IMG/VR virus record: IMGVR_UViG_3300010430_000208
Span: 1 to 38,701 of that record
Length of the DNA: 38,701 nucleotides
From: a virus
Strand: one strand, 5' to 3'
Shown here: positions 9,230 through 38,701 of the stretch, one piece after another
Numbering within the stretch: the first letter of the stretch is position 1
Layout: each line of letters starts with the position of its first letter
Position numbers and translations under genes: made by a program
The notes under the pieces: model-generated
Told to the model about the DNA's origin: nothing
The model's input: the letters and a program-made list of their open reading frames with translations, nothing else
The model's database searches: none

Positions 9230-9248
9230 GGCTGAACCTCCTGTTTGT

Positions 9249-9262
9249 GTGAGATAACTCAC
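9249..9262. promoter_or_regulatory. Small palindrome in the capsid mRNA leader
   Basis: GTGAG-ATAA-CTCAC, a perfect 5-bp stem with a four-base loop, lies in the predicted capsid leader about 20 bases before the start codon, just upstream of the AGGAGG site. It could be an mRNA stability hairpin or an operator. No protein is assigned. Confidence 0.4.
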
Positions 9263-9349: not shown

Positions 9350-9378
9350 AGTATACCGACCCCCCATATGTTGTGCAA
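9350..9378 (-). promoter_or_regulatory. Late promoter for major capsid operon
   Basis: Minus-strand TTGCAC (9378-9373), a 17-base spacer and TATACT (9355-9350): five of six matches to the sigma70 -10 and four of six to the -35, at ideal spacing. It lies after a terminator and about 120 bases before the capsid start. Its -35 begins TTGCACAAC, identical to the other late promoter at 18066-18095. Confidence 0.8.
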
Positions 9379-9710: not shown

Positions 9711-10457
9711 CTAGGTACAAACCTTCGTGATCGCCCCCAGGCCCGCGTGAATGTACGTCTTGCGGGCTATCGGACTCTCAGCCGCCGGGAACAGGGACCG
9801 ATCGGGCAGGCCCAGCGCCCTCGCCGACGCCTTCTGGATCTTGCCCTTCGTAACCAGCGCCTCGAGGCTTGCGGCCCGGGTGTCGTCCAGGACTTCCACC
9901 CGGCTCTGGCAGGACACGTTGCAGGGCATCGCCGTGAACGAGAGCTCGATCCAGTCCCACGCCCGCACGATCGAGGCCGGCGCCCCACGCTTGCCCTCGT
10001 ACCGCTTGGCCTCGTCCTCGGTCGGGGGTCCCACGTCCGTAGCCGCGAACCCGATGGACACCCCGATACCCACCTCACGCGCCACGGACAGGATGTCGTC
10101 GGGCACCGGGCTCGAAATCTTCAGCATCCCGATACGGGCCAGCCAGCCCTTCTGCTCCGCGAACGAGGGGTAGGCGCTCAGGCCGTTCCTCCGCAAAGAC
10201 CCGACGTGCGAGCCCATCGTGTAGTCGTGGTCCACGAACACCTTGCGATTGGACTCGAAGTACGACCGATCGGCCCCCGAGGGGATCACCACCTCGTTGT
10301 CCAGGTCGATGTCGTCGGTGTTGGCGACCACGGTGATGTCCCGGTTGCCGCCCTCGGTGTCCACCGTGGTGTCCTTGCCGAACGACGCCCACACCCCGAT
10401 CTGGGCGTCCCCGCCCAGTTCCGGGTGCTTGCTTCTAATCTTGTCTACGAGCTTCAT
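9711..10457 (-). CDS. Prohead protease (HK97 gp4/S78-like)
   Basis: At 248 residues. The catalytic His motif VDHDYTMGSHVGS (His77) and the Ser motif VGIGVSIGF (Ser134) have the spacing of phage prohead proteases, which cut the capsid amino domain and internal proteins during maturation. A later WDWIELSFTAMPCN segment is also family-typical. The start follows a GGAGGT site and overlaps the portal stop by four bases. Its position between portal and capsid is canonical. Confidence 0.9.
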   Translation of the reverse strand: MKLVDKIRSKHPELGGDAQIGVWASFGKDTTVDTEGGNRDITVVANTDDIDLDNEVVIPSGADRSYFESNRKVFVDHDYTMGSHVGSLRRNGLSAYPSFAEQKGWLARIGMLKISSPVPDDILSVAREVGIGVSIGFAATDVGPPTEDEAKRYEGKRGAPASIVRAWDWIELSFTAMPCNVSCQSRVEVLDDTRAASLEALVTKGKIQKASARALGLPDRSLFPAAESPIARKTYIHAGLGAITKVCT

Positions 10458-13400
10458 TCGTCACCTCCGAAGTCCCCGAGCAGGTTGCACCGGCAGTTCG
10501 ATGCTACAATGCCGTCCGCAACTATCAGCCCGGACTCGGTTGAAAGGTCATACACATGCCCGGAATAGTGACGGATGCTCTTGTGGACCAGTGGGTCCAG
10601 GGTCACCACGCGGGACAATCGGTCAAGAAGATGGCCGAGGAATGCGGGATCTCCCGCGTCACGATCGGCAAGTACCTGAGGCTGGCCGGCGTCACCCCCC
10701 GCAACCGCAGCAAGGCGATGTATGCCCGCATGGCCCAGACGACGCCCGACGAACGGGCCCGACTGACCGAGAAGGCCCACGCCGCCGTCCGCGGCAAGCC
10801 GCAGAGCGATCAGCATAGATGCCTGATTGCCCTCGGACGCGAGCGAGTCGGCAAGCCCGACAGCCCCGAGGAGGCCCAACTGCTCGCCCATCTCCGCGAG
10901 CGGGGCGTTGATCCTGTCCCCCAGAAGGCAATCTATCGCTACAACGTCGATCTGGCCCTCTGTGAAGACCGCATCGCCGTGGAGATCTTCGGGGGCAACT
11001 GGCACCGTGGCGGCAGACACGCCCAGAGACACCGAAAGCGAATCGAACACCTCCGCGATCGTGGTTGGTGCGTGGTCATCGTCTGGTGCAACTCCCGCGC
11101 CGCCGGGCCAATGACCGAGGGAGCCGCAGACCAGATCCTCGCCATCGTTGATCTGACCCGCCGGGACAAAGCCGCCCGCCGTCAGGATTGGATGCTCAGG
11201 GGTAACGGTCAGCCTGCGACCGGACGCGGTTTCAAGATCCACGACGGGGCCTGAGTACGCCGCCCGCATCCCCGCAAACGTCCCGATTCTCCCGACCCTG
11301 GTATCAGGCACAAAGCAGTTTGGGTGGGCCGGGGGAGCCAGCACGGGCCCCCGCGGCGTGAAAGTCGATCCGTCCGCGCCGACGATCGGCACCCCCGCGG
11401 GCCAGAACGGGACCTGTGTGGACACCACCCCGGACTTCTGGCCCGTCCCGTCGTTCTCGTCCACGATCCGCTTGCAGATCGGGCACCCCCCAGGGGCCAG
11501 TTGCCAGATCTTCCCCGTGATCCCGATGTCCTCGAACCCCGCCAGCTTGCCGCCCTGTACCGCCGTCTGGACCTCGGTACGGGCGATCGTCTCGGCGCGG
11601 GCCTCGGTGAAGTCGTCCAGCCGCTTGGCGATGTCGTCTATGGACTCGCCCTCCTCGAGGCCCGTGGCCAGGGACGCCCGGGTCCGCTCCAGGGTCGTCT
11701 CCACGATGTCGCCGGCAAGCCTGAGCGAGTAGGCGTCCAGGAACGCCAGGGCCCGCTCGGGCACGATGTCAAACGCCCCGCCGGCCTCCTCGGCTGCGAG
11801 CTCCAGCCCCACCTCGGCGAACCCCTTGAGGGTCTCGCGGAGCAGCCTGGCGATCTGGTCCACGTCGTCCTTGCCCACCGGCTCGCCCGCGACCGCTCGG
11901 CCCTGGATGTCCGTCAGGTTGTCCCGAATCGTGCCAACGAGTTCCTTTTCTAGCTTCTGGATCTTGTCCGAGCGGAACGGGCCATCGGCGGCCTTCTCGC
12001 CCTCGTGGTCGCAACAGGGGGAACCCCAAGGGTCGTCCGTTTGCGCATCCTTACGCTCCGTTACGCCTATTTCGCTTCCCTTACGCTCGCTCACTACCCC
12101 GCCCACCTCCACCACCCCCTTGCCGTCCGGTTCGGGCGCCGCCAGGAACCCGCTGATCGGGATGGACCCGAACCCGCTGCCCATCGCCGGGGCGGGCTCG
12201 GGCGCACGGTCCAGCGTCTCGAGGCTCTGCCCGCTGATCCGCAGGGCGTCCCCGCCGTCCACCGGCTCAAGCCCCATCTCCATCCGCTCCTCGTTGATCG
12301 AGGTCAGACCAGCCGACACCCGCTGCGCCGCCAGGGTGGTACGCCGCTCCTCGTTCTGGGGCACCGGATCGTCGTACATGAACCGATAGATGGACGGGTC
12401 CAGCCCGAACATCGGCAGGAGCATCTCACTCTGCTGGTCCGCGTCCCGGTTCACCCGGGGCCTGACCGTCAGGTCCAGGTACTGGACGCCGTACCCCTGC
12501 TCGCTCGAGGCCAGGTTGGCGTCGTTCAGGGCCTCCATCGACTCGGGGATGCCGAAGGCCGTGCGGAGCACCTGGCGTAGCTCCTGCCTCTTCTCGAGGT
12601 CCTGGAGCTCCCTCGCCGAGAACTGGGGCGCCGTCACCGTGGACCCGTTGCGGAGGATCAGGGGCTCCGTGGACCCCCGCAGGCCGCCGAGCAGCTTGCG
12701 GAGGGTCAGCCGGATCTCCTCGATCTGGGTCGGGCTCGTCTTCTCGTCCACCGTCACGACGTAATCGGGCCTCATGCCCCGGCTCACGAACTCCTGGTCA
12801 TGGGTCAGGTTCGCCGCGATCAGATCCGCCTCGGCCACCACGAACGCCAGGGGCCCTATCCCGTTGTACGGGTTCACCGGGCTCGGCGAGTGCTGGAGGT
12901 GGATGATGTCCTCACGCTCGAACTTCCGCACGTCCTCGGACCCGCGCCCGAACCAGTACCCCCCGATCAGGGATTGCTCGTCGGGCTGGACCGTCACATG
13001 CTGGGGGTACAGGGGCCACTCGGCCACCGGGCCAGAGGCGTCCCGCTCGATGCCGCTGAACGACTGACCCGCCACCTCACGGAACCAGAACTTCTGGTAG
13101 ACGAGCGAGGAGCCCCCCGGCCAGTTGATGTTCGGGCAGTCGAGGAAGTCCAGCACCGGGTGATCCGTGATCTCCACCACGTCCCCGCCCCGAGACGCGA
13201 AGTCCGCGGCCTTGACCCCCGCGCGCCCGGCCTCCCACGCCTTCCGCCTGTGCTTGGGCACCGCGTTCGGGTCCGAGGCGACGGCCCGGTAGAGCCGCAT
13301 CCGTTGGCTCGAGCAGGCTGTCGCGTTCATGGCCGCGTAGACGGCCACCATCCCGGTGGCGCGGGCCACGAGCTCCATCGAACTCGAGACCGAGGACCGC

Positions 13401-13510
13401 CGGCGCCCGGTGATGTCCGAGACCGTGACCATCGGGCCGAGCCAGTCGTCCGTTGTGGTCACTGTCTTGACGCCCGCGAGGGCCTGAATGGCTTTCGTGA
13501 TCCGTCCCAT
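10454..13510 (-). CDS. Portal protein fused to MuF-like head morphogenesis domain, intein-containing precursor
   Basis: A 1018-residue precursor. Residues 1 to about 430 are an HK97-type portal: a GMVAVYAAMNATACS core start, a SGIERDASGPVAEWPLYP strand, NPYNGIGPLAF and an FGIPESMEALNDAN segment typical of portals. A flexible acidic/basic linker of about 80 residues follows, then a MuF-like minor head domain (about 510-731) ending in a GGCPICKRIVDENDG Cys pair and PPAHPN. The conserved PPAHPN-CRC motif is split by a 274-residue intein (732-1005), leaving CRCNLLGDFGGDE as the carboxy extein. After splicing the product would be 744 residues. Portal and MuF are usually separate adjacent genes; the fusion is natural here, without an in-frame stop. 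Confidence 0.9.
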   Translation of the reverse strand: MGRITKAIQALAGVKTVTTTDDWLGPMVTVSDITGRRRSSVSSSMELVARATGMVAVYAAMNATACSSQRMRLYRAVASDPNAVPKHRRKAWEAGRAGVKAADFASRGGDVVEITDHPVLDFLDCPNINWPGGSSLVYQKFWFREVAGQSFSGIERDASGPVAEWPLYPQHVTVQPDEQSLIGGYWFGRGSEDVRKFEREDIIHLQHSPSPVNPYNGIGPLAFVVAEADLIAANLTHDQEFVSRGMRPDYVVTVDEKTSPTQIEEIRLTLRKLLGGLRGSTEPLILRNGSTVTAPQFSARELQDLEKRQELRQVLRTAFGIPESMEALNDANLASSEQGYGVQYLDLTVRPRVNRDADQQSEMLLPMFGLDPSIYRFMYDDPVPQNEERRTTLAAQRVSAGLTSINEERMEMGLEPVDGGDALRISGQSLETLDRAPEPAPAMGSGFGSIPISGFLAAPEPDGKGVVEVGGVVSERKGSEIGVTERKDAQTDDPWGSPCCDHEGEKAADGPFRSDKIQKLEKELVGTIRDNLTDIQGRAVAGEPVGKDDVDQIARLLRETLKGFAEVGLELAAEEAGGAFDIVPERALAFLDAYSLRLAGDIVETTLERTRASLATGLEEGESIDDIAKRLDDFTEARAETIARTEVQTAVQGGKLAGFEDIGITGKIWQLAPGGCPICKRIVDENDGTGQKSGVVSTQVPFWPAGVPIVGADGSTFTPRGPVLAPPAHPNCFVPDTRVGRIGTFAGMRAAYSGPVVDLETASGRRLTVTPEHPILTAGGFVPAGQINDGEDLVCGSLGHWPGGAGVAPDDDHAPTTIAEVFDSLSVSLGVSAATVPVAPEDLHGDAVFTEGQIDVVAIDCLLGDRINAPLAEMGEQLGLLGAVGLADSLASEGNQASMLIALRLAADGGVGLLGQSGPFVGRRLGHAGIHRLAAVAGGDAGQPQVLADRDAGDPAFLGHLLDRLSRVVTLDPLVHKSIRHYSGHVYDLSTESGLIVADGIVASNCRCNLLGDFGGDE
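10485..10510 (+). promoter_or_regulatory. Extended -10 promoter for the antisense homing endonuclease
   Basis: Plus-strand TGCTACAAT (10502-10510) is an extended -10 (TGn-TACAAT). A TTGCAC lies upstream at 10485-10490 but with only a 14-base gap, so the promoter probably depends on the extended -10. It lies within the intein/extein junction codons and about 45 bases before the endonuclease ATG. The ten bases ATGCTACAAT recur at 29370-29379. Confidence 0.55.
10496..11317 (-). other. Intein (Hint domain) within the MuF domain
   Basis: Codons for residues 732-1005 of the precursor. Block A is CFVPDTRVG with the splice Cys732; block B is LTVTPEHP with the usual Thr770 and His773; block F is HVYDLSTESGLIVADG; block G is VASN ending at Asn1005, followed by Cys1006 (+1 extein nucleophile). 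The penultimate residue is Ser rather than the usual His, a known but less common variant. Between blocks B and F the minus-strand frame (about 780-980) has no recognised domain; that DNA encodes a homing endonuclease on the other strand. In the host protein it interrupts the conserved HPN-CRC motif. Confidence 0.9.
10556..11254 (+). CDS. Vsr-like homing endonuclease, antisense within the intein
   Basis: A 232-residue plus-strand gene wholly inside the intein coding region. Residues 21-46 form an HTH (SVKKMAEECGISRVTIGKYL). Residues 103-180 have the Vsr-like nuclease core: PEEAQLL helix (Glu106), YNVDLAL (Asp132), IAVEIFGGNWH (Glu143, His150), the HAQRHRKR helix (His155, His159) and GWCVVIVWC. 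This matches the Vsr-like (EDxHD) homing endonucleases known from introns and split inteins. Third codon positions are strongly G/C in this frame. Its ATG is the complement of His985 and its TGA of Ser753 of the precursor, so its codons register exactly with the intein codons. An AAAGG site precedes the start. Confidence 0.85.
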   Translation: MPGIVTDALVDQWVQGHHAGQSVKKMAEECGISRVTIGKYLRLAGVTPRNRSKAMYARMAQTTPDERARLTEKAHAAVRGKPQSDQHRCLIALGRERVGKPDSPEEAQLLAHLRERGVDPVPQKAIYRYNVDLALCEDRIAVEIFGGNWHRGGRHAQRHRKRIEHLRDRGWCVVIVWCNSRAAGPMTEGAADQILAIVDLTRRDKAARRQDWMLRGNGQPATGRGFKIHDGA

Positions 13511-13519
13511 GCGATACCC

Positions 13520-14821
13520 CTATCCGAAGGTCGGATCGTCCTCGATTGATACCCGGCCACGCCACTCCTCGAACGACACCGCCACGGGCTCGTGGACCGG
13601 GGCCCCACCGTAGACCGTCGTGCCTAGGTCGTGATCGACGTGCTTGATGACGTACCGGAGGCCGTCCAACGCGTGGTCGTGGGCCTTCTTCACCGTGTCC
13701 TTGGGCCGATCGGGGACCCATTCGTAGGTCTCGAACTCCCGGATCAGGTCCGCGCACTCGGGGTCTACGGTCAGCCTGGGCCTCCCATCGTCCTTGACCT
13801 CGAGCCGCTGGCGTACCCGCCCGATCCCGTCCAGGACCGAGTTGTCCCCCCCGATCGCGTGGATTCCCTCGTCCCGGAGGGCCTGGATGAACTCCGCGGC
13901 GCTCGGGTCGCAGATCACCGCCTCGTGCCCGTCGGCCAGGGACTTGACCGCCTCGATCTTCTCGGAGCGCTGGAGCCCGGACTGGTACACCATCGCCGAG
14001 ACGTGGGCCCGCCCGTCCCCGTCGAGCTCCACCCTCAGAACCGAGAACGGGTTGGTGAACCCGTCGTCCACCCCCAGGATGACCCTGGAGGGCGTCAGGG
14101 CCCTCGTCTTGACGTGGGTGTCTCTGAGCCAGTTGTCGTACACCACGCCGTCTGAGCCCACCCAGCGGCCCATGACGTACCGCTCGAAGTAGACGCCCGT
14201 GAGGTCCATCAGCGAGTCGATGTAGTCCTGGGGCAAACAGGGGTTGTCGGTCGTCTTGGTGTGGATCACCTCGTGGTTGTCCCAGGGGGTGTCCGTGCCC
14301 GGGGCGAGGCCGAACCGCTCCGCGAACCAGTGCGAGGGCGGGCCGGGGTTGCAGGCTGAGTAGAGCTGGCGGATCAGGCCGGGAACCGTCATCCGGACGC
14401 GCCCGTCCAGCATCCGGTAATCGTCCTCCGAGCACTCCACCACCTCGTCAATCCCCACGCCCGAGAGGTTCATGGAGGCGATCTTGCCAGGATCGTCCAG
14501 GCCGAAGTACATGATGGTCCCGCCCCCGTGGATTCGGATCTCGGCCTCGCCCTTGTTGTGGGTGTAGCTCCCCATCGGGAGGACCGGGGGCAGCTCGCCC
14601 TCGGGCTCGAGGAGGGTCTTGAGGGTGGACTTCTTGAGGCTGTTAAAGGTCTTCCGGCACAGCCCCTCACGGGAGCCGGGGACCGTCGCCCTGGAGAGCA
14701 GCTTCAGGCATAGCCCCCGGCTCTTGCCCGTGGCGAACGCGCCCGAATAGCCGACGTGCCGGGCCTCCGAGGCCAGGAACCGCATCTGCTTGGGCAGGGC
14801 TCGTTGGACCAGTTCAACCAT
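13520..14821 (-). CDS. terL: Terminase large subunit
   Basis: At 433 residues, with a variant Walker A GAFATGKS (27-34), Walker B GVGIDE (121-126) and the SACNPG coupling segment (155-160), followed by a nuclease domain with LGVDDGFTNPF, AVICDPSAAEF and DHALDGLRY acidic motifs. It packages DNA into the prohead by ATP hydrolysis and makes the cut. It starts eight bases inside the end of the small-subunit gene, and the portal gene follows nine bases after its stop, the canonical order. Confidence 0.95.
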   Translation of the reverse strand: MVELVQRALPKQMRFLASEARHVGYSGAFATGKSRGLCLKLLSRATVPGSREGLCRKTFNSLKKSTLKTLLEPEGELPPVLPMGSYTHNKGEAEIRIHGGGTIMYFGLDDPGKIASMNLSGVGIDEVVECSEDDYRMLDGRVRMTVPGLIRQLYSACNPGPPSHWFAERFGLAPGTDTPWDNHEVIHTKTTDNPCLPQDYIDSLMDLTGVYFERYVMGRWVGSDGVVYDNWLRDTHVKTRALTPSRVILGVDDGFTNPFSVLRVELDGDGRAHVSAMVYQSGLQRSEKIEAVKSLADGHEAVICDPSAAEFIQALRDEGIHAIGGDNSVLDGIGRVRQRLEVKDDGRPRLTVDPECADLIREFETYEWVPDRPKDTVKKAHDHALDGLRYVIKHVDHDLGTTVYGGAPVHEPVAVSFEEWRGRVSIEDDPTFG

Positions 14822-17203: not shown

Positions 17204-18031
17204 CTACCCCTTGACCTTGAGTTTGACCCGATCAACCGTAGCGCGGACTACACCCTTGGCCCCGTCGTCCTCGCTCTTGATCGCGTCCGTGACCTTGGCC
17301 CGCGCCTCCGGGTCCGCGTTCTCCACGCCCTTGACCACCCGCTCGAGCGTGAACCGATCCTTGAACGCTTGGCGGTGGGCCCAGAGGAAGTACCCGCCCA
17401 CGCCCAGGCCAGCGGCCACGACCACCAGCCAGATCCAGGGGTAGGTGGCGATCGTCACCCCGACCCCGATGAACAGGGCGCCCAAGACGCCCGAGGCGAT
17501 CCCGAGCTTGACCTGCTTGGCCCAGAAGATCAGGCCCGCGCCCAGGGCGATGAACAGGGCCCCGATGGCGTAGAAGAACCCCAACCCGCCGGCCAGCTTC
17601 GAGAGGTCGGCGCTGATCGCCGTGGACCCGCCCTCGGTGCTCGACCCGTCTGGGAACGTCACCTGGGGGGTCTTGGACTCGAACGAGCTCGCCGCCTCGT
17701 CGCTGGTTGTGCTCAGGCTCGGGCCGGTGTACGTCACCGAGTTCTGGGTGTCCACGCTCGGATCGGTCTTGTTGACGTGGACCTCACCGTTCTGGGCGGT
17801 GATCGTGCCGTCCGGGGCGATCGAGACCGACTCGGCGTTGGTGATCACCGTGGATTCGGTGGCGGGCCGGGCTGTCCGGGTGGAGGTCACCGTCTGCCGG
17901 GGAGGCTGGATCACCGAGCGGCTCTGGGTCTGGCACCCGGGGCCAAACACCGCCACGGCGAGCAGCCCCCCCGCGCAGAGGGCGAAGAATGACCAGTCTG
18001 CCGTGGTTCGGGCTCGGCGCGGGATGGGCAT
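17204..18031 (-). CDS. Membrane lipoprotein with two to three transmembrane segments
   Basis: A basic amino end and hydrophobic segment with a lipobox ending at Cys33 (GPGC), a Ser/Thr-rich spacer, then hydrophobic segments at about 147-170 and 178-217 and a charged carboxy tail. It is the first gene of the late operon behind the promoter at 18066-18095, with an AGGAGGT site. The multi-helix core could be a holin or spanin-like lysis protein, but I recognise no family. Confidence 0.7.
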   Translation of the reverse strand: MPIPRRARTTADWSFFALCAGGLLAVAVFGPGCQTQSRSVIQPPRQTVTSTRTARPATESTVITNAESVSIAPDGTITAQNGEVHVNKTDPSVDTQNSVTYTGPSLSTTSDEAASSFESKTPQVTFPDGSSTEGGSTAISADLSKLAGGLGFFYAIGALFIALGAGLIFWAKQVKLGIASGVLGALFIGVGVTIATYPWIWLVVVAAGLGVGGYFLWAHRQAFKDRFTLERVVKGVENADPEARAKVTDAIKSEDDGAKGVVRATVDRVKLKVKG

Positions 18032-18065: not shown

Positions 18066-18095
18066 AGTGTACGCTACCGCCAACAGGTTGTGCAA
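18066..18095 (-). promoter_or_regulatory. Late promoter upstream of the terminase-portal operon
   Basis: Minus-strand TTGCAC (18095-18090), an 18-base spacer and TACACT (18071-18066). The -35 is followed by AAC, giving TTGCACAAC, the same nine bases as in the capsid promoter. A start about seven bases after the -10 leaves a leader of roughly 28 bases with an AGGAGGT site. Confidence 0.65.
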
Positions 18096-18548: not shown

Positions 18549-19081
18549 GGCTTCTCCTTGAGTTTGCCCTGCGCCAGAAGTACCTGACGACAGTGGGACA
18601 GCAGCGAGGGGAGGGTGTCTCCGTCCTCGGGATGACACCAAAGGCCGTTGACACCAATGAGCATCGACCGAGAATTCAGCATCGCCCCATGGCGCGCTAC
18701 GCCGTGCATTCTCGTAAACAACCACTCCACCGCCACCCCGATCTGGGCGGCTAGGTCGATGGGTTCGGGGTTCTCTGGGTCTGCGTATACCGTTCGATTG
18801 CCCGTGTACGGCCCAACGAACGACCGCTCCCAGTCGCCGAGCGCGTTCTGCCCCGGCGGCGGCTCTTGTCGCGCCCACCCAGGAGGAACCAGCTTCGGCT
18901 CGACCTCCCAGAGTTCTACCCAGGCTTCGAGTGTTTCAGTCTTGGGCATCGGGTGTCTCCTGTTGTGATTGAGAAGGGCCACGGTATTGTCGGGCATCCA
19001 ATCCGCCGTCAGGATCGGCACGCCCAGGATGGTTCGCCCCGTGTCTCGGCACACCCCCCTGCTGTAGTAGTGCCTGCCCAT
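18545..19081 (-). CDS. Hypothetical protein, 178 aa (alternative internal start at 18949, 134 aa)
   Basis: The longer start at 19081 overlaps the TGA of the HNH gene (TGATG). An in-frame ATG at 18949 is preceded by GGAGACACCCG, the ribosome cassette shared with four other starts, so translation may begin at either. The shorter product begins MPKTETLEAWVELWEVEPKL and has a VEWLFTRMHGVARHGAML segment; the extra 44 residues have coding composition. No family recognised. Confidence 0.6.
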   Translation of the reverse strand: MGRHYYSRGVCRDTGRTILGVPILTADWMPDNTVALLNHNRRHPMPKTETLEAWVELWEVEPKLVPPGWARQEPPPGQNALGDWERSFVGPYTGNRTVYADPENPEPIDLAAQIGVAVEWLFTRMHGVARHGAMLNSRSMLIGVNGLWCHPEDGDTLPSLLSHCRQVLLAQGKLKEKP

Positions 19082-19599
19082 CACTCCCCCTTGCTCTTGT
19101 GGTGTTCGAGGTGAATCTTCGATGCCGGTCCGCCTCGCCAGTGGCCCCAGTCGGTCGCGCGATAGACCGTGGTATCACTTACACCCAGGTCCTCTGCAAT
19201 CGCCACAACTGACTCACCGCGCCCCCTTCTGTTGCGGGCGTCTAATACTTGGCCACTGCTCAACTTCGACACCAATCCAGACCGGACAGCGTGGTGGACG
19301 TTCTCTCGCCTGCCGACCCATTCCAGGTTCGATGCGTGTGAGTTCTGCTTGTTCCCGTCGATATGGTTCACCTCTGGCTTGCCGCTACGAACTGGGACAA
19401 ACTGCTCTGCCACCAATCGGTGAGTGAACTTCTGCGCCCTGGTCCCGTCACCCCTATACAGAACCACGGCGGGGTACCTGCCGTTTCCGTTCAGTGACCC
19501 GTTGATGAACTTGCCCGACTCGGTGTTATGGACGTGGCCGTACTCTGACACACGGTATCTGGGGAACCCAGGGATTTCAGACCACATGATTTCAGGCAT
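19081..19599 (-). CDS. NUMOD4-HNH homing endonuclease, free-standing
   Basis: 172 residues. NUMOD4 strand region (MWSEIPGFPRYRVSEYGHV, then a GRYPAVVLYR strand), an HNH core with VNHIDGNKQNSHASNLEWV (His79, Asn91) and a carboxy-terminal HTH (about 113-152: LSSGQVLDARNRRGRGESVV...DTTVYRATDWGHW). The start at 19599 is chosen since upstream codons lie in the preceding gene. It encodes a site-specific mobility endonuclease between two early genes; no intron or intein is visible at its borders. Confidence 0.88.
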   Translation of the reverse strand: MPEIMWSEIPGFPRYRVSEYGHVHNTESGKFINGSLNGNGRYPAVVLYRGDGTRAQKFTHRLVAEQFVPVRSGKPEVNHIDGNKQNSHASNLEWVGRRENVHHAVRSGLVSKLSSGQVLDARNRRGRGESVVAIAEDLGVSDTTVYRATDWGHWRGGPASKIHLEHHKSKGE

Positions 19600-19930
19600 C
19601 AGAATCCCTTTCGATGATCGCCCGCGCGAATGCCTCCATGTCCTCGGCTCGGATACACACAAGCCACTCCTCGCGGTTGGGGCGGAAGGCGACAACGGGG
19701 ACAATGTTCGGCCCAGCGTCCGAGATCGCCTTCTTCATCCAAGCCCTCGGGCTCTCTCGCTGAACTCGCTTGACCTCGAAATGAATGCCGTCGATGTCAG
19801 ACACGACATCGGGCGCGTCCGGGTTGCCGGCGTACTGCTGGCCCCTTCGGGCCTTGATCCCCAGGTGCTTGCGCAGCCAGTCCCGCCACTCGAGTTCGCC
19901 CCGGATTCCTTTTTCCCTGCTGTTGATCAT
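19592..19930 (-). CDS. PD-(D/E)XK-type nuclease / Holliday junction resolvase-like
   Basis: 112 residues with the nuclease pattern KGIRGELEWRDWLR (Glu12, Glu14), NPDAPDV (Asp38, Asp41) and IHFEVKRVQR (Glu52, Lys54). This is the layout of archaeal-type or phage resolvase-like Mrr/PDDEXK enzymes. The remaining half is helical. Its position in an early operon of recombination genes fits a role in resolving replication or recombination intermediates. It overlaps the downstream HNH start by eight bases. Confidence 0.7.
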   Translation of the reverse strand: MINSREKGIRGELEWRDWLRKHLGIKARRGQQYAGNPDAPDVVSDIDGIHFEVKRVQRESPRAWMKKAISDAGPNIVPVVAFRPNREEWLVCIRAEDMEAFARAIIERDSDA

Positions 19931-20868
19931 CTGACCAGCTCGTACTTCTCAGAGATGTGCTTCATCAGGAGGCTGGCCCGGTCGTAGTCCTCGTTTGTGC
20001 CCCAGAGTTGCATCTGCTTGGGTCCCCGGATCGCGTTGTAGAGGATGTTAAACTCTGTCATCGGGTCCAGTTTCAACTCCACCATCGGGCGGAAGGCGTA
20101 GCGGATTTGGCAGTTGTAGGCGGCGCGGTTGATGTCGCTCGCTGATTCCCACTTCCGCGCGACCGCTGTCTCGATCGCTGCGTTGCCGCGGTTGTTGTAG
20201 CACCAGAGCAACTGGAACGGGGGCCACGGGTTGTCTCCGAGGCGTTCGGCGATTTTCTCTCGGAAGCGGAAGGCGCTTTTGACCCGGTCGGCGGTCTCGT
20301 CGTAGCTCGGCACGTTCACAACATCGCAGTCCGTTCCGATCCCCACCACGCATCCGTTCGCCTCGCTGGCGCCCGCTGCCATGCCGCAATGAAAGAGGTA
20401 CGACTTGAGGGCGAGTTCGGATTCCTCGGGGCGACTGTCACCGGCAAGCCAGTACGACCCCGCCGCGCTCGTTGCGTGCAAACCCGGAACGCTCAACTCA
20501 TCGACGTAGGCGCGCCCGTTCGGTCCGTGCTGGCGAACGACCATCTGTAAGCCCCACCACCTGCCAGCCGAGTAAGCGCGGTCCATCGGGATAGCGACGA
20601 TGATGTCGCCGATTCCCTCCCTGACCTCTTTGGGCAGGTGTGGGTTGTCGTCAGGCATATGCGGGTGAACCTGATCCTCATAGATCAGATCGTACTGGTC
20701 CGCCAACTCCCGACCTTGGTTGCCGATGATGGCGACGGTCAGGTCGAGCCCAGGCTTGAGGGGTGTGACCACGACAGGCTCGGGCATCAGGCCACCCTCA
20801 ATCATCGCCCGCTCGTGCAGGGCGAGTCGTTGCTCGGCGGCGTTCATTCGTTCGTTCATGTCAGGCAT
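19927..20868 (-). CDS. Hypothetical protein, 313 aa, no family recognised
   Basis: The start MPDMNERMNA at 20868 overlaps the end of the small membrane-protein gene by eight bases; the longer reading to 20964 runs through that gene. It contains an alpha/beta core with LDLTVAIIGNQGRELADQYD (about 42-61), GDIIVAIPMDRAYS and a Trp-rich WWGLQMVV segment, Cys residues near the middle, and ends in a helical segment. It is the largest unassigned protein of the early region. Enzymatic character is plausible, but I see no known catalytic motif. Confidence 0.7.
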   Translation of the reverse strand: MPDMNERMNAAEQRLALHERAMIEGGLMPEPVVVTPLKPGLDLTVAIIGNQGRELADQYDLIYEDQVHPHMPDDNPHLPKEVREGIGDIIVAIPMDRAYSAGRWWGLQMVVRQHGPNGRAYVDELSVPGLHATSAAGSYWLAGDSRPEESELALKSYLFHCGMAAGASEANGCVVGIGTDCDVVNVPSYDETADRVKSAFRFREKIAERLGDNPWPPFQLLWCYNNRGNAAIETAVARKWESASDINRAAYNCQIRYAFRPMVELKLDPMTEFNILYNAIRGPKQMQLWGTNEDYDRASLLMKHISEKYELVR

Positions 20869-20971
20869 CGTCGTCGGGGCCTCCGTATTTGATCCAGTCG
20901 TATATGAGTGCGCAGAACAGGGTGAACAGGAGCACGATGGCGGCGCCAGGACATGCCACCTCAATCCACAT
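20861..20971 (-). CDS. Short membrane peptide, 36 aa
   Basis: Reads MWIEVACPGAAIVLLFTLFC then ALIYDWIKYGG, one transmembrane helix with a short charged tail. An AAGGAGACACCT site (variant of the repeated cassette) precedes the ATG at 20971. Its stop overlaps the next gene by eight bases, which supports it as a real coupled gene. Function unknown. Confidence 0.6.
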   Translation of the reverse strand: MWIEVACPGAAIVLLFTLFCALIYDWIKYGGPDDDA

Positions 20972-20989
20972 CAGGTGTCTCCTTGGGGG

Positions 20990-21205
20990 TTAGATCGCGC
21001 TGATAACTGCGATTGCCACGGCCCCGACTGTCACGACCGCCCACACCCGCCAGTCCGTGGGCAGAACATGAACCGTCACCCATCCTGTATTCCAAGCGTG
21101 GGTATCGTTGTGGTGGTGGCTATGGGTCGCGGTCTTGACATCAGGCCCGCTCTCGCCGCCGAACCCAATCTCCAAGTCTGCGAAAACGCTGGGTCCATTA
21201 TCCAT
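20990..21205 (-). CDS. Small protein with carboxy-terminal transmembrane anchor, 71 aa
   Basis: A soluble acidic amino half with a His cluster (THSHHHND) and a carboxy-terminal hydrophobic segment (VWAVVTVGAVAIAVISAI), a tail-anchored layout. The ATG at 21205 sits in the GGAGACACCCGATG cassette, which overlaps the end of the upstream gene. No family recognised. Confidence 0.65.
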   Translation of the reverse strand: MDNGPSVFADLEIGFGGESGPDVKTATHSHHHNDTHAWNTGWVTVHVLPTDWRVWAVVTVGAVAIAVISAI

Positions 21206-21614
21206 CGGGTGTCTCCTGTGGAGTGGTCTCGGCCTCGACCGGCACGAACATGGCCAGGATCTGCTGCTGCGTCTCTACCCTGAACTCCGGGTCCATGTCC
21301 GACCAGTCCATGCAATGAAGCGGTCGCAGGGCCTTCATCACGCTGCCGTCCGGGACGATGCGCGCCGACTCAAGAAGGCTGCTCAGGTCTGAGATCGAGA
21401 AGAACGACTTGTCCAGCAGCCGCTGGAGTCCGACCTGGACAGCGTCCTGCACGAACTCATGGGCGGGCTTCGGGTTGACCGTGACTGGACGAGAAAGGTC
21501 GGGCTTCCGTGTGGACCGGCCCTCTTGGATCATTGAGATGATCTGGAGTCCCATGATCGCGTCGTCGCGCTCTCGGGTCACTCGCGCGAGTTCCCGACTG
21601 CTGCTGCTAAACAT
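21198..21614 (-). CDS. Hypothetical protein, 138 aa
   Basis: Starts in the GGAGACACCCG-ATG cassette (21614) and ends with the residues ETPDG because the next cassette is translated within its tail. An amino-terminal helix (SRELARVTRERDDAIMGLQ) is followed by a helical region (AVQVGLQRLLDKSFFSISDL). No family recognised. Confidence 0.65.
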   Translation of the reverse strand: MFSSSSRELARVTRERDDAIMGLQIISMIQEGRSTRKPDLSRPVTVNPKPAHEFVQDAVQVGLQRLLDKSFFSISDLSSLLESARIVPDGSVMKALRPLHCMDWSDMDPEFRVETQQQILAMFVPVEAETTPQETPDG

Positions 21615-22008
21615 CGGGTGTCTCCCTCTTGGCTTGCTCGGCTGCTTCGGGGGTGGAGTAGCAGTCGGAAATCGGAAGGACAAGCCACTCTCTGATCCTC
21701 GGCACTTCGGAGTTGTCGGGGTGCTCATCATCCTCGCCGAAGTTCCGGTCTTGCTGGCAGTCAATCAGGTCGTTGGCGATATACCGGCGCCCTGTTGTTG
21801 GACCGTACACTGCGCCCAGCGGCCCAACCCTCACCCCATCAGCCGTCACCGGCAACGACTCCACCAGCCTGACGATCTCCTCGGGGGTGTGCTTCTCTAG
21901 GAGGGGGGCGAGGGCAGTCAGGATCGAATGCGCCTGTGCGGTCCACCCGTTGCTCTGGTACGACAACGACTCAAGCAACTCCCCGATGCCCACTTTCTTC
22001 TCACCCAT
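21607..22008 (-). CDS. Hypothetical protein, 133 aa
   Basis: Starts at ATG 22008, overlapping the upstream stop by eight bases, and ends ETPDV, the cassette-encoded tail. It has an amino-terminal helix pair (ELLESLSYQSNGWTAQAHSI, EEIVRLVESLP) and a DGVRVGPLGAVYGPTTGRRY strand region. No known family. Acidic, soluble. Confidence 0.65.
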   Translation of the reverse strand: MGEKKVGIGELLESLSYQSNGWTAQAHSILTALAPLLEKHTPEEIVRLVESLPVTADGVRVGPLGAVYGPTTGRRYIANDLIDCQQDRNFGEDDEHPDNSEVPRIREWLVLPISDCYSTPEAAEQAKRETPDV

Positions 22009-26232: not shown

Positions 26233-26261
26233 ATCCTACCATCCCCTGCACTACAAAGCAA
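26233..26261 (-). promoter_or_regulatory. Minus-strand promoter of the divergent control region
   Basis: TTGCTT (26261-26256), a 17-base spacer and TAGGAT (26238-26233) read on the minus strand. The motif TGTAGTGCA (26255-26247) is the first half of the spacer, so a repressor there would block this promoter. The TAGGAT hexamer lies about 20 bases before the ATG of the 25987-26214 gene, giving a short leader. Confidence 0.7.
26247..26255. promoter_or_regulatory. Operator candidate O1, TGCACTACA
   Basis: One of five copies of TGCACTACA (or TGCACTACC). It lies between the -35 and -10 of the minus-strand promoter. The motif is itself an imperfect palindrome, TGYAsTRCA, matching its reverse complement at six of nine bases, as expected for a dimeric repressor half-site. 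Confidence 0.6.
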
Positions 26262-26266
26262 GGGGC

Positions 26267-26295
26267 TTGCCTCTTGTGGACGAATGCACTACCAT
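26267..26295 (+). promoter_or_regulatory. Promoter of the ribbon-helix-helix repressor gene
   Basis: TTGCCT (26267-26272), a 17-base spacer and TACCAT (26290-26295) on the plus strand. The -10 ends six bases before the repressor ATG at 26302, so transcription would begin at or near the start codon (leaderless mRNA). The second operator copy (26285-26293) overlaps the end of the spacer and the -10. Confidence 0.65.
26285..26293. promoter_or_regulatory. Operator candidate O2, TGCACTACC
   Basis: Eight of nine bases match the motif. It overlaps the -10 of the repressor promoter and lies 38 bases from O1, so one protein could control both divergent promoters and its own synthesis. Confidence 0.55.
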
Positions 26296-26301
26296 ACGCC
26301 C

Positions 26302-26448
26302 ATGCGCAGTTCCAAGCAGATCGCCGTCCAGGTCCGAATCACCCCCGCCCAAGACAAGGCGTGGAAGGCCGCAGCCGCCCGCAAGGGCCAGTCCTTCTCC
26401 GAGTGGGCCAGGACCGTCCTGGACCGGGCGAGCAAGGCCAAGCGGTAG
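26302..26448 (+). CDS. Ribbon-helix-helix repressor (Arc/CopG-like), 48 aa
   Basis: The only plus-strand early gene. The sequence KQIAVQVRIT (residues 5-14) is a beta-ribbon strand, then PAQDKAWKAAAARKG and QSFSEWARTVLDRASK form the two helices of an Arc/MetJ/CopG-like fold, dimers of which read DNA with paired ribbons. The basic carboxy tail and the small size fit. Two operator-like motifs flank its promoter, and further copies sit in other promoters, so it is probably an autoregulating master repressor. The start at 26302 is chosen since upstream frame has no better codon. Confidence 0.8.
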   Translation: MRSSKQIAVQVRITPAQDKAWKAAAARKGQSFSEWARTVLDRASKAKR

Positions 26449-26455
26449 TCAGCGG

Positions 26456-27100
26456 CTAAATCCCGCTCAAGACCTTATCAAACTGCTTCTCTTTGTTGTC
26501 CCCGATGAACTCGAGGAGTTTCTTGCACGCCTTCACGCTGCCGTCCTTTGGGTCAACGTCGGCTGCCTTGCGTATCTTGGCGCCGATGGATTTCAGGTCC
26601 GCGTCGTCCTGGATTCCCGTCCACTCCATGATCGCCTTGGCAACCGCGTGCCTCCAGGCTCCTGGGCTTCCCTCTGATGGGTTCGTGTTGTCACCCGCCA
26701 CCTCTCGGGTTCTAGGAGCCGGCGCGGCCCCACGGTTCGCGTCGTCGTCCTCGTCCGCCACGATCCCGAACACCGCGCACAGTGAGTACCGGCGCCCATA
26801 GGTCATCGCAGAGCCAACCGCTTGGGGGTTGTCCCTGACCGGGAGGTAGATGGTGCCCGCATCGTATGTTTCACCGCTCTCGGCGTGAACGATGATGGTC
26901 TGGAGCGCCAGCCCCCGCTCCGATTCCACTGAGCGCTGGATGTAGTAGATCCCGGCCTCAGCCAAGATCGGTCGAAGCGACGCCACAATGTTCGGCAGGG
27001 ACACAAACTTGGAACTGAAATGCGGGTTCTCCGCGTCCAGCGAGAGCGTTGGGATCTGCGACCAGACCTTACCAAGCGCCGTCAGTGCTTTGTTGCTCAT
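26456..27100 (-). CDS. erf: ERF-family single-strand annealing recombinase, 214 aa
   Basis: The motif GSAMTYGRRYSLCAVFGIVA (96-115), then DEDDDAN, is the ERF signature. ERF proteins anneal single strands during phage recombination and genome circularisation. The start at 27100 (MSNKALTALG) follows GAGGGGT; a longer upstream reading runs into the exonuclease gene. The carboxy part is a variable DNA- or partner-binding tail. It overlaps the upstream exonuclease by 32 bases and works as its partner. Confidence 0.9.
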   Translation of the reverse strand: MSNKALTALGKVWSQIPTLSLDAENPHFSSKFVSLPNIVASLRPILAEAGIYYIQRSVESERGLALQTIIVHAESGETYDAGTIYLPVRDNPQAVGSAMTYGRRYSLCAVFGIVADEDDDANRGAAPAPRTREVAGDNTNPSEGSPGAWRHAVAKAIMEWTGIQDDADLKSIGAKIRKAADVDPKDGSVKACKKLLEFIGDNKEKQFDKVLSGI

Positions 27101-27998
27101 CTGAATACCCCTCACAGTGGACTTGTACGTCACACAGCTTGCACCTGATCGGGTCCGGGCTCTTGGGCCACAAGCCCGCCCTGGCCATCCGGACGTGATC
27201 CTCGAAGTCTGAAAGCCAGCGCTTACGCCCCGACTCGTCAATGGTCGTCTGGTGGATGATCCGAGACAAGCTCCGGTCGTCACCCTTGGCGTACTTGCGC
27301 TTGCTGCCGTCCGGAGACGTAGACGATCCTCCCTGCTTGTACGGGAGGCACCGCATCATGTCCACGATTGCCACACGCGCAACGTCCGCCTCGAGACGTT
27401 GCCACTCCTCTCCAATCAACACGCGCCCGTTCGCCACCGAGTACCCGTAGGACCCCATCTGCAAGCTTCGCTCAGACGCCTCGCGTGTCGGGGCCTGCTC
27501 CTTGAACTTCCAGTCCCACGGCCGGACAACGAACTCGGAGTGGGCGTCCCAATACTCGGGGCCAACAAACAAAAGGTCGATATGACTGGCGAACTCGACC
27601 GGCTCTCCGTCCACGCTGATCGTGCATCGGACCGGGACCTCCACGCCGAGCAGGTGGCACTGAGAAAAGTATTCCTTGAACCGCCGGATATAGTGCTGGA
27701 CCAGGACCTCCACCTCGCCCGCGATCTTGAGAACGTCACGCTCCACCGCAGCCGATATGGGCCTCTTGTCCTCCTCGGCCTTCTGGTGCGCGATCTTGAT
27801 CCCAGCACACACACACTCGGACCCAACATCCTCGTCCCAGTCTGCCGGGTCGTAGTCCCGGTGCAGGGTCTCGAGAGCGCCGTGCCCGAGGTTCCCCCTG
27901 AACAACGCGGTAGTCGTAAACCCGACCGAGAGTGACTGGAGTTCCAAGTGCCGCTGCCGCTTACACTCCCTCGTCAGGTCTGTTGTGTGGATCTCCAT
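27069..27998 (-). CDS. RecB/Cas4-like Fe-S exonuclease, 309 aa
   Basis: Cysteines at 12, 286, 289 and 295 (CKLCDVQVHC) fit the four-Cys iron-sulfur site of AddB/Cas4-type nucleases. The PD-(D/E)XK core has FASHIDLLF (Asp141), WDWKFKE (Asp162, Lys164) and LQMGSYGY (Gln180). It would resect DNA ends for the ERF annealing protein. It starts after AGGAACCG with a promoter -10 eight bases upstream, so the mRNA is almost leaderless. Confidence 0.8.
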   Translation of the reverse strand: MEIHTTDLTRECKRQRHLELQSLSVGFTTTALFRGNLGHGALETLHRDYDPADWDEDVGSECVCAGIKIAHQKAEEDKRPISAAVERDVLKIAGEVEVLVQHYIRRFKEYFSQCHLLGVEVPVRCTISVDGEPVEFASHIDLLFVGPEYWDAHSEFVVRPWDWKFKEQAPTREASERSLQMGSYGYSVANGRVLIGEEWQRLEADVARVAIVDMMRCLPYKQGGSSTSPDGSKRKYAKGDDRSLSRIIHQTTIDESGRKRWLSDFEDHVRMARAGLWPKSPDPIRCKLCDVQVHCEGYSDEQQSTDGAW

Positions 27999-28006
27999 CG
28001 GTTCCT

Positions 28007-28035
28007 ATTGTAGTGCAACCACCCCCACCCGTCAA
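28007..28035 (-). promoter_or_regulatory. Promoter of exonuclease-ERF unit
   Basis: TTGACG (28035-28030), 17-base spacer, TACAAT (28012-28007). The -35 contains the stop codon of the DnaA-like gene. The motif TGCACTACA (28017-28009) overlaps the spacer end and the -10. The exonuclease ATG lies only eight bases after the -10. Confidence 0.75.
28009..28017. promoter_or_regulatory. Operator candidate O3, TGCACTACA
   Basis: Exact copy of the motif, minus orientation, overlapping the -10 of the exonuclease-ERF promoter. Confidence 0.55.
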
Positions 28036-28511
28036 CCCGTGTGGACGCCGTTCTTCCACTCGTTCACGAACTTGTCCCGCAGGCGACCGCTCACCAGATC
28101 ATCGTCCACGGGCCGAGCCGCCCTGTCCCCGTTGCGTCGCCTGGACCGGGTTGACGCCAGGTACTCGAGGCTCGCCATCGCAAGGTCCACCACACCCTCG
28201 AACGGGGTGCGCTGGAACCTCCCGCCCCGAATGACTTGGGTGTCCCGGTTGTGCAGGACATGGGCCCGCGCCTTCCTTGCCGATCCGAGCGGGCCAGAGT
28301 GACTCTTCTTGCCAAGCGCCTTCGTGATCTCTGGGTACGAATAGCCGGCGTAGTCGTGGCCGATCATACAGATGGCTTGCAGGCATCCCAGCTTCTCGGC
28401 CTGCCGGTTTCTCTTGTCATACACCTCGGTGATGCCAATGCCCCATGCCTTCGCGCACGCGCTGATGATTTCCTGCATCGTTACGAGTCCGTCACCTATA
28501 TCGCTGCTCAT
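28032..28511 (-). CDS. Stand-alone DnaA domain IV-like protein, 159 aa
   Basis: Residues 13-80 match the DnaA DNA-binding domain: EIISACAKAWGIGITEVYDK, then RNRQAEKLGCLQAICMIG, YSYPEITKALGKKSHSG, which corresponds to the SYPEIG...FGGRDHST signature of DnaA domain IV. There is no AAA+ ATPase, so it is a DNA-binding module only. A basic carboxy half (RSRRRNGDRAARP) follows. It could bind DnaA-box-like sequence at the phage origin or regulate promoters. Confidence 0.75.
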   Translation of the reverse strand: MSSDIGDGLVTMQEIISACAKAWGIGITEVYDKRNRQAEKLGCLQAICMIGHDYAGYSYPEITKALGKKSHSGPLGSARKARAHVLHNRDTQVIRGGRFQRTPFEGVVDLAMASLEYLASTRSRRRNGDRAARPVDDDLVSGRLRDKFVNEWKNGVHTG

Positions 28512-28684
28512 CTCTTCGCTCCCTCAGTCTTGACCCGTTCCCGGACCTCCTCGCGGTCAACCCGAACATGCTTGGGCGCTTCCACCCCGATCCGAACCCG
28601 CTCGCCCTTGATCATCTCCACCGTCACACGGATGTCGTCCCCGATCAGTATCGCCTGGCCCTCGAATCTTTGCAGTACGAGCAT
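28508..28684 (-). CDS. csrA: CsrA/RsmA-like translational regulator, 58 aa
   Basis: Reads MLVLQRFEGQAILIGDDIRV then TVEMIKGERVRIGVEAPKHV and RVDREEVRERVKTE: the full CsrA beta-strand sequence with the conserved MLVL start, the GxxI-IGDDI strand and the VRIGVEAPK-x-VRVDREEV motif, in which Arg44 of the last segment is normally RNA-binding. CsrA dimers bind GGA motifs, often in ribosome sites, and repress or stabilise mRNAs. A phage copy could seize host control of translation. It overlaps the DnaA-like gene (ATGA). Confidence 0.9.
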   Translation of the reverse strand: MLVLQRFEGQAILIGDDIRVTVEMIKGERVRIGVEAPKHVRVDREEVRERVKTEGAKR

Positions 28685-31989: not shown

Positions 31990-32018
31990 CGTTACCGGTC
32001 CTGTAGTGCAGTTGTCAA
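31990..32018 (-). promoter_or_regulatory. Promoter of the 31970-29532 unit
   Basis: TTGACA (32018-32013), a 17-base spacer and GTAACG (31995-31990), or TAACGT at 18 bases. The -35 is a perfect match. The motif TGCACTACA (32010-32002) is within the spacer. Confidence 0.6.
32002..32010. promoter_or_regulatory. Operator candidate O4, TGCACTACA
   Basis: Exact copy of the motif, minus orientation, within the spacer of the promoter at 31990-32018. Confidence 0.55.
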
Positions 32019-34385: not shown

Positions 34386-34414
34386 AGCCTACATGCTTTG
34401 TAGTGCAGAGTCAA
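34386..34414 (-). promoter_or_regulatory. Promoter of the early unit starting at 34379
   Basis: TTGACT (34414-34409), a 17-base spacer and TAGGCT (34391-34386). The -35 overlaps the stop of the upstream gene. The motif TGCACTACA (34407-34399) lies one base into the spacer. The -10 ends six bases before the ATG. Confidence 0.65.
34399..34407. promoter_or_regulatory. Operator candidate O5, TGCACTACA
   Basis: Exact copy of the motif in minus orientation, inside the core promoter of the first early unit. Followed by AAAGC as at O1. Confidence 0.6.
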
Positions 34415-37839: not shown

Positions 37840-38667
37840 TTACAGCCCGACCGGCTGCCGCACGTCTGATGCGCCCAGGTATGCGACGTTCGAGATAGTC
37901 GTGCCGGACTTGATGCCCGAGATCCGACCGCCGTAGGAGTTGAAGGCGGTCCCTCCGTAAGTGATGTCCTCCTGCTGCTGCGAGAAGTCCAGCAAACCGC
38001 CGTGGAGCGTGTACGTCGGGACTGCCCCGTACATTGGGAAGACCTTTCCGCCCCACTGTTCCACCTCGGTCAGCGTGCCGAGTTCGCCGTGAAGCGTGAC
38101 TGTGGCAGTCCCGCCCACGATGATCTTGGTAAAGCCGCGTTTGATGAGCCAGTTCCCCGCAAGGAAGTGGGCGAGCGTGAACCCGGTAGCGTTGTACTCG
38201 ATCACGCCCGAGCCGCGCGAGCCCGTCACCGCGTTCTCGGTCGAGTAGAGGTTGGTGATCACGCTCGAGGCGTTCGCGTTGAGCAGGCCCCCGTCGATCG
38301 TCAGGTCCGTCACCGTGCCCCCGGTCAGGAACGTGCGCTGACGCCCGCCCAGGTCGAGGTTCTGGATCTCCGTCCCGCCGTCCGTCAGGTAGAGGTCCAC
38401 CCGGCCACGGTTGCGGATTCGCTCCGTACCCGTGCTGTTCGCGTCCACTTGGAGCGAACCGTCCGTGCCGCCCCCGACCTGGCCCGTGGCCCCCTCGTTG
38501 AAGTCGAGGGAGTCGATGCCCGTGGCCGAGAGGCCGGACTGGTCCAGGCCCGCGGTGATACGCCCGAAGGGCTTGTTCACTTCGAGCGTTGCGTTATCGG
38601 CGAATCCAGTCGCGTCGGACCAGTTGGCCGCAGCGAATGAGGTCGCCCCTTCGTTGAGAACTGCCAT
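37840..38667 (-). CDS. Beta-solenoid-like virion protein, 275 aa
   Basis: Short repeated Gly-Gly-Thr/Asp turns and strands through the sequence (LDFNEGATGQVGGGTDGSLQ, TFLTGGTVTDLTIDGGLLNA, ATVTLHGELGTLTEVEQWGG) suggest a beta-solenoid. Start at 38667 after AAGGAGG. It lies between the tail-tip and Cys-rich genes. A role as fibre or spike is inferred. Its first 29 codons are repeated at the window start. Confidence 0.65.
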   Translation of the reverse strand: MAVLNEGATSFAAANWSDATGFADNATLEVNKPFGRITAGLDQSGLSATGIDSLDFNEGATGQVGGGTDGSLQVDANSTGTERIRNRGRVDLYLTDGGTEIQNLDLGGRQRTFLTGGTVTDLTIDGGLLNANASSVITNLYSTENAVTGSRGSGVIEYNATGFTLAHFLAGNWLIKRGFTKIIVGGTATVTLHGELGTLTEVEQWGGKVFPMYGAVPTYTLHGGLLDFSQQQEDITYGGTAFNSYGGRISGIKSGTTISNVAYLGASDVRQPVGL

Positions 38668-38701
38668 TATCTGGCCTCCTTATTCGCTCCACGCCTTGAG
38701 C
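38579..38701. repeat. Direct terminal repeat, right copy
   Basis: Exact copy of 1-123. One copy should be removed to obtain the unit genome of about 38,578 bp. The gene that starts at 38667 is intact in this copy; the left copy carries only its first 29 or so codons. Confidence 0.97.

Follow-up and report, generated by a model that had tools for sequence, protein, structure and literature searches.

Genome and locus

At the locus studied here a 48-residue protein is encoded on the plus strand, and two copies of one short word, differing at a single position, lie in the opposing promoters beside its gene:

26233..26261, minus strand: promoter TTGCTT-17-TAGGAT; the unit it heads runs on the minus strand from 26214
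26247..26255, plus strand: candidate operator TGCACTACA of the divergent region, immediately following the -35 hexamer of promoter 26233..26261
26267..26295, plus strand: promoter TTGCCT-17-TACCAT of the 48-residue protein gene, with the ATG 6 nt past the -10
26285..26293, plus strand: candidate operator TGCACTACC, overlapping the -10 of that gene's own promoter
26302..26448, plus strand: gene of the 48-residue, very probably ribbon-helix-helix (RHH) protein, the proposed repressor; monocistronic, the sole plus-strand gene among the units

The window was the whole IMG/VR record IMGVR_UViG_3300010430_000208 (38,701 bases). Positions 1-123 recur as 38579-38701; this direct terminal repeat of 123 nt indicates a complete or circularly closed genome of ∼38.6 kb. 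Gene content is that of a tailed phage, and nearly all genes lie on the minus strand. The landmarks used below are as follows:

7733-9262: HK97-type capsid
10454-13510, minus strand: portal
13520-14821: terminase
26456-27283: Erf recombinase

The portal gene codes for 1018 residues, a portal fused to a Mu F-like head protein, and the C-terminal third of the fusion has a weak match to an intein-splicing profile (E 0.003). The phage also encodes a CsrA-like RNA-binding regulator of 58 residues (28508-28684, minus strand; PHROG 9500, E 1.4e-18). No similar phage record was found at the DNA level with the 23.7 kb of the genome that were searched; three near-identical IMG/VR contigs represent the same phage and add assembly support only.

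A rare word confined to promoters

The word TGCACTACA occurs in four exact copies in the whole genome (26247, plus strand; 28009, 32002 and 34399, minus strand) and nowhere else, as the first-pass annotation had stated from scanning; its count of five exact sites has to be reduced to four, the copy at 26285-26293 (TGCACTACC) being the single near-exact one, with one mismatch. Dinucleotide shuffling gave an expectation of 0.04 copies, and four were reached in no shuffle. In a ranking of all 9-mers by over-representation, TGCACTACA came first with order-3 and order-4 models and second with order 2. Scored in the 60 nt upstream of gene starts it reached 9e-12, while the best score over all words in 1000 order-2 simulated genomes was 2.6e-9; thus, after correction for all possible words, none of the 1000 simulated genomes was as strong as the observed one. 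The strength arises because the word is rare as well as repeated; by a cruder statistic, the maximal number of copies of any 9-mer, the genome was not significant. Other over-represented words (AAGGAATAC, GACGTAGAC) were wholly or almost wholly intragenic. The motif observed in the first pass is confirmed, with strong statistical support.

The motif is a 9-bp near-palindrome, TGYASTRCA (TGCA-C-TACA), with TGCACTGCA/TGTACTACA as its symmetrised forms; all five early sites retain one asymmetric form, TGCACTAC. Every one of the five copies lies inside a promoter of the form TTG-N17/18-TANNNT. Random occurrence within genes, which would have spoken against a regulatory role, was thus not what we saw: all five are in core promoters instead. 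Besides the pair at the divergent region, the sites are:

28009..28017, minus strand: candidate operator TGCACTACA in promoter 28035-28007 (TTGACG-17-TACAAT), where it overlaps the -10
32002..32010, minus strand: candidate operator TGCACTACA in promoter 32018-31989 (TTGACA-18-TAACGT), following its -35
34399..34407, minus strand: candidate operator TGCACTACA in promoter 34414-34386 (TTGACT-17-TAGGCT), following its -35
18086..18094, minus strand: possible variant operator TGCACAACC in promoter 18095-18066 (TTGCAC-18-TACACT), where it overlaps the -35; putative member
9369..9377, minus strand: possible variant operator TGCACAACA in promoter 9378-9350 (TTGCAC-17-TATACT), where it overlaps the -35; putative member

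Position within the promoter is of three kinds. At 26247 (read for the minus-strand promoter), 32002 and 34399 the motif follows the -35 by 0-2 nt; at 28009 and 26285 its distance from the -35 is 12 nt and it runs into the -10; at the structural sites 9369 and 18086 it covers part of the -35. The earlier placement in the spacer or core is corrected by the first two of these, all five sites still being inside promoters. With its offset to the hexamers varying in this way, the motif is what one would expect of an operator and not of a core promoter element.

Promoters and transcription units

A scan of the whole genome with the pattern TTG-N16-18-TANNNT, blind to the motif, produced 11 candidate promoters, of which seven head transcription units; the remaining four showed no sign of being promoters. 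An annotated gene start was present within 80 nt at six of the 11 places (the five early promoters and 18095-18066), and the seventh unit-heading promoter, 9378-9350, is situated between a terminator-like hairpin and the capsid gene. Besides the gene of the 48-residue protein, the genome was segmented into these units:

34379 to ∼32.0 kb, minus strand: unit headed by promoter 34414-34386
31970 to 28032, minus strand: unit headed by promoter 32018-31989
27998 to 26456, minus strand: exonuclease-like and Erf unit, headed by promoter 28035-28007
26214 to ∼18.1 kb, minus strand: unit headed by promoter 26233..26261
18031 to 9711, minus strand: terminase and portal unit; promoter 18095-18066 is upstream of it and of gene 17204-18031
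9262 across the genome ends to ∼34.4 kb, minus strand: capsid and tail unit; promoter 9378-9350 is upstream of the capsid gene, just past a strong 14-bp terminator-like hairpin (9429-9399)

The claim that sites 28009, 32002 and 34399 belong to promoters heading minus-strand units is confirmed by this placement.

All seven unit-heading promoters contain TGCACWAC, a pattern found nine times in the genome against 1.1 expected, seven of the nine being at these promoters. The two structural promoters share TTGCACAAC in their -35 (9370-9378 and 18087-18095), which is found nowhere else in the genome. Both the W of the pattern and the two structural sites were recognized post hoc, and the scan itself selects in part for the TTGC letters; membership of these two sites is therefore suggested only. 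As the structural promoters carry TGCACWAC, the motif pattern may be genome-wide rather than limited to early genes; the regulon of early units proposed in the first-pass annotation was perhaps drawn too narrowly, having missed a variant site at two structural promoters.

At three starts, 26302 (plus strand), 27998 (minus strand) and 34379 (minus strand), the ATG is 6-8 nt past the -10, which implies leaderless mRNAs; the mRNA of the 48-residue protein would thus probably be leaderless. Other genes of the phage have clear Shine-Dalgarno sequences, and a start sequence of the ACAGGAGACACCCGATG type, with its Shine-Dalgarno, recurs at several gene starts (18947-21628 and 31541).

The 48-residue protein

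The protein, MRSSKQIAVQVRITPAQDKAWKAAAARKGQSFSEWARTVLDRASKAKR, is encoded by a gene with coding-like GC3 (0.92). Several RHH profiles match it at 3e-4 to 0.1, all below gathering scores: the best Pfam match was NikA-like (3e-4), followed by RHH_10 (5e-4) and ParD (1e-3); in a one-genome search RHH_10 gave 2.8e-6, also below cut-off. A single-sequence AlphaFold2 model (pLDDT 78) has an extended N-terminus followed by helices 15-28 and 32-47. Matches of this model in Foldseek and VIA were mostly RHH proteins (ParG, NikA, FitA, VapB, AtaR, CopG, Arc, AmrZ), with modest scores (best Foldseek E 0.37, best Z 5.3). Judging from profile matches, predicted fold and helix pattern, the protein is very probably an RHH protein, as had been proposed from the letters alone.

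In the N-terminal strand, QIAVQVRIT, hydrophobic residues (I7, V9, V11, I13) alternate with outward ones (A8, Q10, R12); the latter we take to align with the DNA-reading positions of Arc (Q9, N11, R13). The alternating strand and the near-palindromic motif are consistent with a homodimer that would insert a beta-ribbon into the major groove, and a 9-bp near-palindrome is a plausible footprint for one RHH dimer.

No relative of the protein was found in viral_contigs, genome_contigs, phages or PDB. Phages with the same head module (terminase identity 40-57%) have only structural genes in common with this phage and gave no RHH match; the TGCACWACM matches checked in them were within open frames of 100-717 codons. 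In the collections searched we found no relative in which the 48-residue protein and the site could co-vary. A composite promoter and operator pattern retrieved 19 stretches from viral_contigs, this phage included; 18 have one motif copy and one has two, and, with single copies prevailing, the result looks like chance.

A type II antitoxin of the ParD/VapB/FitA type was considered and rejected: no co-transcribed toxin gene is present beside the RHH gene, the downstream gene being the convergent Erf gene (26456-27283), and a gene alone on its strand is not an antitoxin with a partner.

Proposed regulation

We consider it rather probable that an autoregulated RHH repressor blocks RNA polymerase at the promoters with the motif. 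The sites, their rarity, their placement in promoters and the RHH-like protein encoded next to them were seen directly; from these we infer binding by the 48-residue protein and, with it, repression, timing and the possible extension to late genes. Dimers would read the near-palindrome TGCA-C-TACA with the beta-ribbon, and a dimer seated on one of the hexamers, -35 or -10, or in the spacer between them would exclude the host RNA polymerase of sigma-70 type. Targets would be the promoters of the replication and recombination units and the RHH gene's own promoter. When DNA enters the cell, transcription would start unrepressed; the repressor would build up from its own, probably leaderless, mRNA and would then silence the early units and itself, a timer with negative feedback. 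Late genes may come under the same control through weaker variants of the site (TGCACAAC) in the promoters of the two structural units. No terminator-like site was found in the minus-strand early region around the RHH gene; as this gene is antisense within the region, one could speculate that early read-through delays production of the repressor.

In favor of a repressor is a rare word recurring only in promoters, with two sites flanking the RHH gene's own divergent promoter region; autoregulation, an element of the first reading, is supported by the promoter-embedded operator set, which includes the sites at the own promoter (26285, 26247). Several observations are against it. RHH dimers usually bind adjacent half-sites cooperatively; the sites here are single, and second matches nearby are weak only. 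The constant asymmetry, TGCACTAC, does not by itself follow from a symmetric dimer, although one RHH protein, MobC of RA3, is known to prefer an imperfect operator. None of the RHH profile matches reaches its curated cut-off, and the phage encodes a second candidate DNA binder:

28032..28511, minus strand: 159-residue protein with a DnaA domain-IV-like (Bac_DnaA_C) region

The main alternative is a different phage protein as owner of the motif, most plausibly this one. Its box would then control phage promoters or couple transcription with replication, the RHH gene being a neighbor by coincidence. The protein has a Bac_DnaA_C profile match of 3.8e-4, below cut-off, and a DnaA-signature-like stretch, GKKSHSGP, in its translation; its gene ends just upstream of site 28009, and DnaA boxes are asymmetric 9-mers, which fits the one asymmetry shared by the early sites. 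Identity of the motif with the classical DnaA box was rejected: TTWTNCACA was not found in the genome, and TGCACTACA and TTATCCACA have only 5 of 9 positions in common. Since, moreover, the pair of sites flanks the RHH gene and not the DnaA-like gene, and placement in core promoters suits a repressor, we regard a DnaA-like owner as unlikely. We saw no AAA+ domain in this protein, and the quality of its structure model was too poor for use.

Two further explanations dispense with a phage-encoded binder of this sort. Some phages place host operators in their own promoters, use of host LexA being an example, and with such precedents the motif might be the box of a host regulator through which the phage senses the state of the host; a phage RHH gene sitting exactly in the divergent region with two copies, as well as head-module relatives having promoters free of the motif, makes this quite improbable. 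The motif might also belong to the promoter proper, either as an extended -10 or as an element of the spacer that a special sigma factor or activator reads. It does supply the -10 in two promoters (TACAAT, TACCAT) and overlaps the -35 TTGCAC in the two structural ones; yet three promoters have it 0-2 nt past the -35 and a -10 hexamer of their own at 17-18 nt, one of the three with the motif reversed, and whereas core elements keep fixed mutual positions the motif moves relative to the hexamers. We find this reading very improbable.

The autoregulated RHH repressor could have a wider reach. One 48-residue protein would then run every recognizable promoter, the early ones through strong TGCACTAC sites and the structural ones through weaker TGCACAAC sites, as a graded timer of the whole genome or as a carrier-state repressor in a phage without integrase, its leaderless mRNA being exposed to antisense read-through from upstream units; such a scheme we consider doubtful. 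The first-pass annotation had also offered a lytic/lysogenic switch. No Phage_integrase or Resolvase match was found in the genome, control searches being positive, and an HTH_3 (cI-type) domain was not found either; a lysogeny switch is thus unsupported; extrachromosomal lysogeny is possible.

If the repressor is confirmed, a complete small circuit (one repressor, five to seven operators and the promoters containing them) would be readable from sequence in an uncultured phage without close relatives. The candidate operator sequences are directly testable, and the promoters segment the genome into transcription units.

Comparison with known systems

Viral control of the proposed kind is well known, and the phage described here is a new and unrelated case. 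CopG of plasmid pMV158 is likewise a single-domain RHH autorepressor, of 45 residues, and its structure 1ea4 ranks with the best matches of the model (Z 5.2; 40 residues superposed at rmsd 2.8); CopG differs in serving plasmid copy control, at one promoter and with a longer pseudosymmetric element. The best Pfam match of the 48-residue protein, NikA-like, points to relaxosome RHH proteins such as MobC of RA3, whose binding site, an imperfect palindrome, lies between the -35 and the -10 of its own promoter, which it represses; perfecting the palindrome lowers affinity, the imperfect operator being preferred (PMC4175270). MobC and NikA-like proteins are, however, conjugation auxiliary proteins encoded beside a relaxase, and none of the phage proteins that were scanned matched a relaxase.

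Arc and Mnt of phage P22 are phage RHH repressors of ∼50 residues acting at a divergent promoter region, and Arc structures (1bdv, 1baz, 1b28, 1myl) are among the fold matches; Arc and Mnt have no significant sequence similarity to the 48-residue protein, and Arc acts at one operator (ant/arc), whereas here one motif extends over five to seven promoters. The small RHH proteins of archaeal viruses, F55 of SSV1, SvtR of SIRV1 and AvtR of AFV6, act on several viral promoters including their own by occlusion; SvtR and F55 have been described as repressing their own and other viral promoters in this way (PMC5569661). They differ in their archaeal promoters and viruses, F55 binds tandem ATAGATAG, and there is no sequence link. 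Still, the distribution of predicted sites, over the RHH gene's own promoter and several more promoters of the phage, matches that of F55 and SvtR; if the proposal is true, a bacterial tailed phage would join the autoregulated multi-promoter RHH repressors of archaeal viruses.
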